A stretch of DNA of 64,000 bases from Saprospiraceae bacterium (GTDB taxonomy: Bacteria > Bacteroidota > Bacteroidia > Chitinophagales > Saprospiraceae). The notes under the pieces are model-generated. The model ran no database searches. It worked only from the letters and a program-made list of their open reading frames with translations, and had not been told where the DNA came from. Shown here one piece after another: positions 18,971 through 58,360 of the stretch. The DNA lies in NCBI GenBank assembly GCA_030729925.1, contig JANQWK010000044.1:1-64000 (forward strand), read 5' to 3'. Made by a program: the position numbers and the translations under genes. Every line of letters starts with the position of its first letter. Position 1 is the stretch's first letter.

Positions 18971-18988
18971 GAATTAGATATCTAAAGA

Positions 18989-19107
18989 TTTGAAAATCAA
19001 AAATTTAGAGCACAGGTGCAAGCCACCTTAAGGTGCCTTGCACCTAGAATACCCCTATTAATTCCTCCAGCTGCCAAAACGTAACCTGCTTTGCCCGGTT
19101 TTTTCGG
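18989..19107 (+). repeat. Dispersed 3'-end element, copy 1
   Basis: First of four copies of a structured intergenic element. The core is a 34-bp imperfect palindrome at 19013-19046: arms CAGGTGCAAG and CTTGCACCT around the perfect inner palindrome CACCTTAAGGTG, separated by single mismatched bases. Flanks shared with other copies, read in the direction of the preceding gene rtcB: TTTGAAAATC about 24 bp before the hairpin, then after it an ATACCC...TATTAAT block and GTAACC (19081-19086), then a T-run (19099-19104). The copy lies between the convergent ends of rtcB and the lectin gene. This copy has one inserted base between the hairpin and the ATACCC block. A role in 3'-end formation or as a mobile repeat is inferred. 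Confidence 0.85.
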
Positions 19108-20819: not shown

Positions 20820-20939
20820 CCGCAAAAAAACGGGTTTGCGACGGTTACTTTTTGAAGCTTCGGGGGATTAATAAGGGTAATCAGGTGCAAGCCACCTTAA
20901 GGTGCCTTGCACCTGATTCACAAAACTTTGATTTTCAAA
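20820..20939 (-). repeat. Dispersed 3'-end element, copy 2
   Basis: Second copy. The 34-bp hairpin is at 20882-20915 with the same sequence as copy 1 plus the closing G. Read on the minus strand, that is in the direction of the M19-like gene ending at 20970, the order is: TTTGAAAATC (complement of 20930-20939), hairpin, ATTACCC/TTATTAAT block, GTAACC (complement of 20843-20848) and a T-run (complement of 20824-20830). The distance from the hairpin to the end of GTAACC is 39 bp, identical in copies 2, 3 and 4. The T-run here sits between AACCCG and CGGGTT arms. The hairpin is 55 bp after the M19-like stop codon. Confidence 0.85.
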
Positions 20940-20969
20940 AATTTACAACAAAAAAATCAACAATACGAC

Positions 20970-31978: not shown

Positions 31979-32098
31979 CGGCAAAAAATGGAGCACAACC
32001 CGGTTACTTTCTGGGATGTCGGGGTATTAATTAGGGTAATCAGGTGGAAGCCACCTTAAGGTGCCTTCCACCTGATTCTTAAATTATTGACAACCAAT
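31979..32098 (-). repeat. Dispersed 3'-end element, copy 3 (compensated hairpin)
   Basis: Third copy, oriented with the minus-strand gene that ends at 32116. The hairpin is at 32041-32074, 42 bp from that stop. Its outer arms read CAGGTGGAAG and CTTCCACCTG: compared with the other copies one C has become G in the left arm and the partner G has become C in the right arm, so pairing is kept. The inner CACCTTAAGGTG is unchanged. The AGGGTAAT/ATTAAT block, GGTTAC (32002-32007, complement GTAACC) and the A-run at 31983-31988 are conserved at the same spacing as in copy 2. The copy lies between the convergent ends of purC and the dehydrogenase-like gene. Confidence 0.85.
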
Positions 32099-32115
32099 AA
32101 TTTAATCAACAAAAA

Positions 32116-34882: not shown

Positions 34883-35261
34883 GGGGACGTAATGGAATCG
34901 ACAGGATTGATAACTGGTTAGTAAGCATGCCGGAGCATGATGGTTCACTCCGTTAAAAAATGACTATTAACTTCCTTTTACATGGCAACTATAACTATGC
35001 CATGGCTGCCTAAGACCAGGTCTTAGAAAGCCTTTGTGCCGTACGCTTGACGCCTGATACACAGCGTGCCGCATATCATCGACCCCTCGGGCTGGTCTGC
35101 TGCGATGCCCCTGTCAGCAGATAAGATATAGGGGATAAGGGTGATGCATGGGAGGGTTCCCAGTCCTTTCATCGCCTCGAAAATTCAACTGGTAACTAAG
35201 CATGTAGAAAGCTCTCTGGTGCTTTCGCTGGACGCGAGTTCGACTCTCGCCGTCTCCACCA
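34883..35261 (+). ncRNA. ssrA: Transfer-messenger RNA (tmRNA)
   Basis: One-piece tmRNA of about 379 nt that rescues stalled ribosomes and adds a degradation tag. The 5' GGGGACG pairs with 3' CGTCTCC (35251-35257, one G-U pair), followed by an encoded ACCA end. The 5' start GGGGACGTAATGGAATCGAC and the T-arm GCGAGTTCGACTCTCGC are typical. The tag frame reads GGC at 34984-34986 then AAC TAT AAC TAT GCC ATG GCT GCC TAA: peptide GNYNYAMAA, matching the Bacteroidota pattern of a Gly start and a YALAA/YAMAA end; GGC as resume codon is inferred. Pseudoknot-like G/C-rich helices lie between 35015 and 35200. It ends in a strong terminator directly after the CCA. Confidence 0.95.
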
Positions 35262-58198: not shown

Positions 58199-58228
58199 GG
58201 TTTTTTATGTTTTAAATATCATAAAACA

Positions 58229-58360
58229 ATGAAAACCAGTGCCTTAAAACACAGGTGCAAGCCACCTTAAGGTGCCTTGCACCTGATTACCCTTATTAAT
58301 ACCTTTTTGGAGGAAAAGGTAACCTATCTTTTGGGCTGATCGGGGGAGCATCTTTTTCCC
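58229..58360 (+). repeat. Dispersed 3'-end element, copy 4
   Basis: Fourth copy, in the direction of the polytopic membrane protein gene. The hairpin at 58252-58285 has the same 34 bp as copy 2. Before it is GAAAACCAGT (variant of GAAAATCAAA), at the same 11-base distance as in copies 1 and 2. After it come ATTACCC, TTATTAATACC, GTAACC (58319-58324, ending 39 bp after the hairpin) and a T-run at 58353-58357. The sequence after GTAACC is the most divergent of the four. Confidence 0.82.

Follow-up and report, generated by a model that had tools for sequence, protein, structure and literature searches.

The window, i.e. the whole stretch of 64,000 nucleotides analysed here, carries four copies of an element that spans about 105 nt, has an orientation and, as seen when copies are aligned by their flanks, is centred on a palindrome. 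These copies and their features are as follows:

32041-32074, strand not assigned: 34-bp palindrome of copy 3, with the G-C allele at pair 7-28 (32047/32068) and a C-C mismatch at pair 11-24 (32051/32064)
32002-32107, + strand: element copy 3, made of a 5' block (GGTTAC..GGGGTATTAATTAGGGTAAT), the palindrome and an AT-rich 3' block, with an approximate boundary on the 3' side
32092-32104, + strand: IHF-like sequence AACCAATAATTTA in copy 3, matching WATCAANNNNTTR with one mismatch
18980-19086, - strand: element copy 1, palindrome at 19013-19046, flanked by two convergent genes
20843-20948, + strand: element copy 2, palindrome at 20882-20915
58219-58324, - strand: element copy 4, palindrome at 58252-58285

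An Rfam search of the window left the hairpins without any match, its sole match being the tmRNA (RF00023) at 34883-35261 on the + strand, and the palindrome pattern had 0 matches in shuffled sequence. The palindrome of copy 3 reads CAGGTGGAAG-C-CACCTTAAGGTG-C-CTTCCACCTG, and those at 19013, 20882 and 58252 read CAGGTGCAAG...CTTGCACCT(G/A), where position 7 is C and position 28 is G. The window sequence therefore confirms what an earlier note on this DNA had reported, namely that a C-to-G change in one arm of copy 3 is compensated by a G-to-C change in the other arm, the three other window copies being C-G. Pair 7-28 thus stays paired in copy 3 as that note had claimed, but the symmetry of the 34-mer is imperfect, as the C-C mismatch at pair 11-24 is present in all four window copies (+ strand reading). 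Similarly, the inner 12-mer that was said to be unchanged is constant in the four window copies, but not genome-wide, since CACTTTAAGGTG occurs in 16 of 80 copies.

These 80 copies come from a search of the 3.74-Mb Bacteroidota genome that contains the window (G000), in which the palindrome occurs 193 times with at most three mismatches over 30 fixed positions, and the reversed control pattern 0 times. We read 1.0 Mb of it, or 27% of the genome, made up of the window plus 60 stretches; as 33 of these were picked for holding copies, copy densities are not estimates. Up to ten mismatches being allowed, this sequence yielded 86 places, with 59 exact matches, 17, 7 and 2 matches with one, two and three mismatches, one truncated copy with five mismatches, and none with four or with six to ten. 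From the 85 places with at most three mismatches, 5 without a readable flank were dropped, leaving 80 copies for the pair counts. None of 39 other relatives has this palindrome at up to three mismatches, and viral contigs searched with the pattern gave no match.

Pair 7-28 is CG in 52 copies, GC in 26 and GG in two; pair 15-20 is CG in 63, TG in 16 and CA in one; pair 1-34 is CG in 64, TG in 12 and something else in four. As G-C is a common allele at pair 7-28 (26/80 copies), a sequencing error at position 7 or 28, the caveat that accompanied the original observation, is excluded. The mutual information of pair 7-28 (0.78) was equalled in none of 500 permutations, and that of the next pair is 0.21. 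In 46 aligned copies, 94.8% of the helix cells are standard; the covariation score is higher than in any of the 500 shuffles or of the slid versions, and the number of cells changed on both sides exceeds all 500 shuffles, but neither the number of double-change pairs (131/500 shuffles as high) nor the number of pair types (26/500) is outstanding. Because the flanks resolve no tree, the covarying cells among the 46 copies do not amount to independent events; a tree made from the flanks only shows 22 label changes at pair 7-28, but 2 independent pairs on supported branches. The 7-28 signal in this genome is that of one two-state pair, and could go back to one or two double changes that copying then spread. 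Of the 80 copies, 47 are non-standard at pair 11-24 (GG 19, CC 18, TC 9, AC 1), and these two positions are free not to pair in G000. We also considered covariation inside the half-hairpins, and dropped it as weak or haplotype-linked (169/500 permutations as high for 7-11, 4/500 for 24-28).

That the element is mobile is suggested by the comparison with a same-genus genome (G001) at three comparable gene spaces, where it is present in G000 and absent from G001 in all three cases. First, purC and its convergent neighbour, separated by an element in G000, overlap or abut in G001. Second, where nadC faces pyrD, the matches finish about 33 bp apart in G001. Third, an aldehyde dehydrogenase gene is followed by the same binding-protein gene at about 43 bp in G001 (these gene names are assigned from the sequences at the compared loci). 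Nine further protein fragments were queried against G001: three gave orthologue-level matches (70-89% identity), which represent two loci, and six were unusable. No single locus distinguishes a gain by G000 from a loss by G001; gain is favoured because G000 has 193 copies versus none in G001, where no RAYT (REP-associated tyrosine transposase, a REP being a repetitive extragenic palindrome) was found either (88% complete genome). We observed neither a target-site duplication nor an excision product, and the three empty sites are too diverged to define exact ends.

A gene for such a transposase, RAYT-like and of the HUH/Y1 type, was located in G000 (contig C94) by a search with NF047646 (E 2.1e-15, 56.9 bits), its scores against NF047646 and Pfam Y1_Tnp falling under the curated cut-offs. 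The gene occupies L124:2619-3248, and its 209-aa product starts with an ATG at L124:2619, which is 41 bp downstream of a palindrome (L124 2544-2577) whose element has the same orientation. A second element, inverted, has its palindrome (L124 2168-2201) 342 bp farther up, and no palindrome occurs 3' of the gene up to a run of N about 260 bp away. In REPtrons, flanking on both sides of the RAYT gene is typical. The protein has the HUH (NHFH) and tyrosine (YIHANP) catalytic motifs: H54, H56 and Y163 are invariant in 26 aligned homologues, as is S183 in the serine pair beyond the tyrosine motif, S184 being nearly so. A profile search of PDB sequences (E up to 1) gave one match, the TnpArep 4er8 (E 0.0027). 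This structure, a RAYT bound to a REP hairpin, was also the top Foldseek match in the PDB for the AlphaFold model (pLDDT 85), with E 7.3e-6, 15% identity and TM 0.51/0.63. As other Y1 gene fragments occur in G000, the C94 gene, though the best candidate, has others beside it. Three such fragments lie at contig ends (L050:4280-4642 on C20, L126:1-240 on C77 and L125:2430-2708 on C9), two of them adjoining a tandem repeat of the GGGTGCCCAAAA type; they are possibly subclass 2.4 genes with an in-frame repeat insertion, broken by assembly. The G000 hairpin is a short, extragenic, multi-copy palindrome adjoining a RAYT gene of its own genome, and in these respects resembles RAYT-associated REPs and REPtrons.

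The palindrome-RAYT association extends to relatives. RAYT homologues (E up to 0.001) occur in 90 of the 199 genomes of the family that were searched. Among the 30 loci listed and examined, one per genome, 29 remain when the own locus is excluded, and 22 of these, each in another genome, have a palindrome within 200 bp of the RAYT gene, the other seven having none. The palindrome is upstream in 18/29 loci, downstream in 16/27 and on both sides in 12/27 (27 having enough sequence); at the 12 two-sided loci a core is common to both sides, as judged by eye. Overall, 34 of 56 RAYT flanks have a palindrome, as compared to 5 of 222 distant 200-bp bins (Fisher p 1.5e-23) and 1 of 22 purC flanks. The RAYT-adjacent palindromes mostly differ from genome to genome. 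In G005, a covariance model matched a palindrome that differs from that of G000 but is accompanied by a similar 3' block, and the RAYT homologue (45% identity) has a copy of that palindrome about 165 bp upstream and a rearranged copy 10 bp downstream. There are 14 palindrome copies in G005, 12 in G140 and 113 in G129, the latter counted with the core GTCAGACATTT...AAATGTCTGAC at up to two mismatches. A prediction of the palindrome-RAYT link also held: among the matches listed for the palindrome pattern alone, the MAG B8_G4 encodes a RAYT at 42% identity, and a copy of its own palindrome ends 83 bp ahead of the matched RAYT part; the matches listed do not measure how widely the pattern is spread. 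By its coordinates this MAG seems to be G070 of the 199 genomes, outside the 30 loci, and it would therefore belong to the same bacterial family. In two relatives, the genome's palindrome occurs within the RAYT reading frame, stop-free, in the HUH-Tyr interval (L132:1845-1889 in G129 and L135:1708-1782 in G140). The covariance-model matches in G023 were rejected as members of the same family, as they look like an unrelated MITE: at L087, L090, L093, L095 and L097, terminal inverted repeats of about 24 bp (GGTTCATTGACAATTTTTGCCA) surround a palindrome, and this MITE-like element is probably a different family.

The arms of the palindromes in these relatives bear on whether the fold is selected. 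In 20 distinct exact-core copies of G129, counting outward from the core, the two arms pair at 0.90-1.00 over positions 8-13; at the same positions, identity between copies is 0.31-0.64, and arms taken from different copies pair at 0.29-0.64. Of the 12 copies in G140, two have a stem change that is compensated (A-T or G-C replacing C-G), and three have one that is not. In G005, three of the 14 copies have arms paired over 9-12 bp, and the other eleven do not exceed 6 bp, so that long paired arms are not universal in that genome. The earlier proposal that the fold is selected, and not the sequence alone, is thus supported, mostly by G129, three G005 copies and two G140 copies; as for the G000 signal, it possibly reflects few events. 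Quasipalindrome correction, a known mutational process in which replication switches template between the two arms, could produce paired changes without selection, and the almost perfectly paired arms of G129 and the two G-G copies of G000, as uncorrected intermediates, would suit it. However, this process should also mend pair 11-24, non-standard in more than half of the copies, and it gives no account of palindromes beside RAYT genes; we regard it as an unlikely source of the paired changes, albeit one compatible with our preferred explanation. It is also conceivable that the outer arms, which are unrelated among the three long-arm G005 copies and drifting in G129, are built anew at insertion, the transposase reaction or a later repair copying one target flank as an inverted repeat around a fixed core. 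Were this very unlikely scenario true, each insertion would build its own hairpin, the compensations would in part result from transposition itself, and recognition would concern the sequence of the core alone.

Along the G000 element, GGTTACTTTTTGG and GGGGTATTAATAAGGGTAAT are separated by about nine variable bases, and are followed by the palindrome and then TGTTTTAAATATTTGATAATCAATAATTTAAAT. The conserved positions are near invariant and the variable ones carry little information, which indicates that the copies are not recent identical duplicates. Two direct-orientation elements 211 bp apart (L019:9756 and 9967), with nearly identical 5' blocks, represent a tandem duplication. Contigs C13, C16, C19, C27, C36, C39, C21, C17 and C35 of G000 start or finish about 130 bp or less from an element, so the element family itself seems to break the assembly. 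We call the 3' block IHF-like on the basis of WATCAANNNNTTR, the IHF consensus: at offset 17-19 downstream, 48 of 75 copies match it with one mismatch or none, as compared to about 0.6 in shuffles. Such a fixed spacing to the IHF-like block, together with a near-invariant core and flanks that diverged far more than the core, might mean that the palindrome is a duplex site bound, next to IHF, by a nucleoid or regulatory protein that acts as a dimer, the RAYT adjacency being secondary. We consider this highly improbable, as a duplex-binding protein has no need for the differing but complementary arms of G129 and of the three G005 copies, and as the IHF-like block does not generally belong to the system: it accompanies 3 of 48 RAYT-flanking palindromes versus 3.9 in shuffles. 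The block is a lineage-specific addition found in G000 and, by eye, after several G005 copies.

None of the 80 read copies lies inside a called gene. The genes were called with an in-house script, and 20 of the 80 copies, for which one side of the stretch had no called gene, were left unclassified; the 60 others occupy 21 convergent, 28 tandem and 11 divergent gene spaces, the shares expected from intergenic length being 18%, 52% and 30%, respectively. This enrichment of convergent spaces is what would be seen if the hairpin acted as RNA, as a terminator or a stabiliser of mRNA 3' ends, and were kept for that role. So is the excess on the element strand of T-G wobbles over C-A mismatches (34 versus 4 cells), as if that strand folds, although two positions account for 28 of the 34 T-G cells, which may reflect two inherited alleles. 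Against a role as RNA, the 8 nt that follow the hairpin include at least six T in 1/80 copies on the element strand and in 0/80 on the other, so the hairpin does not qualify as an intrinsic terminator (a hairpin plus a T run); none of the three copies of the scanned stretch is among its terminator-like sites; 11 of the 60 copies sit in divergent spaces; the element is missing at the three comparable G001 loci; and the RAYT link is left unexplained. All in all, an RNA function appears quite unlikely.

From these lines of evidence, we propose, with a probability of about 0.85, that the hairpin forms the core of an element that is REP-like but atypical in lacking GT[AG]G, that a subclass-2.6-like TnpA_REP mobilises this element, and that the compensations are kept because the stem has to form. 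The scattered hairpins very likely spread with the small transposase that has two hairpin copies beside its gene, and what probably preserves the paired changes is the importance of the folded shape, as is the case for known bacterial REP repeats; selection on the folded form fits the data. Known members of the HUH transposase family of RAYT bind single-stranded DNA hairpins. The earlier note had spoken of a folded RNA or cruciform: the fold is supported, but the molecule is probably wrong, the element being linked to this transposase family, and single-stranded DNA is likelier than RNA. In the proposed mechanism, the transposase would bind the palindrome in the form of a single-stranded DNA hairpin, probably upon its exposure by replication, and would copy or move the element in trans. 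Since the stem must form, a change in a single arm would persist only with a change of its partner. The IHF-like 3' block, a putative IHF site, may bend the DNA or assist the reaction.

These loci bear on how TnpA_REP proteins recognise a hairpin without a GT[AG]G guide. The present bacterial family offers 23 RAYT loci with a nearby palindrome (22 of 29 in relatives and our own) and 12 to 193 copies across the four genomes counted, along with a same-genus genome in which neither palindrome nor RAYT was found. The co-evolution of protein and hairpin is thus directly testable there, as are the strand and molecule involved (single-stranded DNA or RNA) and whether the complementarity of the arms is selected or made by the reaction.

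Our literature search, within the listings obtained and the papers cited below, found no published description of the G000 hairpin family. Since the GT[AG]G tag is in 0 of 80 copies on both strands, the element is not filed as a canonical GTAG-REP. Like the BIME-1 with IHF (RIB; PMC2817692), it combines a palindrome with an IHF-like site, is intergenic and is enriched between convergent genes; unlike it, it has one palindrome instead of two REPs around the IHF site, which here is a consensus match only. Compensatory changes are reported in REPs and REPINs (PMC2817692, PMC3116915); in REPINs they are common, and long-hairpin and clover folds are alternatives (PMC3116915). A REPIN consists of two inverted REPs that are separated by a spacer and fold into one hairpin. 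Similarly to REPINs, our element is a symmetric palindromic unit with invariant parts and compensatory changes, and as each half, AGGTGNNNNNCACCT, is self-complementary, a two-hairpin fold is possible and is predicted to be stable by itself (about -11 kcal/mol with RNA parameters and -6 with DNA parameters, the long hairpin having -23 to -30 and -13 to -19, respectively). In contrast with REPINs, its halves are only two bases apart, it has no GTAG and the covariation within halves (7-11, 24-28) is weak.

The closest likeness is with TnpA_REP subclass 2.6 (RAYT group 5) of Bacteroidetes, a subclass marked by a 21-aa insert between alphaC and beta4, for which PMC6006769 describes no GT[AG]G, flanking by "atypical secondary structures" with copies elsewhere, hairpins termed weaker (as in class 3), and the tabulated motifs NH[LIV]H and YIH[QN]NP. 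The G000 hairpins, by contrast, are strong, and the C94 protein has NHFH and YIHANP; as these do not match the exact subclass motifs, we name it 2.6-like only. What is shared is a Bacteroidota host, a protein with HUH, tyrosine and a serine pair after the tyrosine motif, and a gene accompanied by non-GT[AG]G hairpins with copies elsewhere in the genome. On the evidence of PMC6006769, the kind of system to which the G000 hairpins belong is already known.
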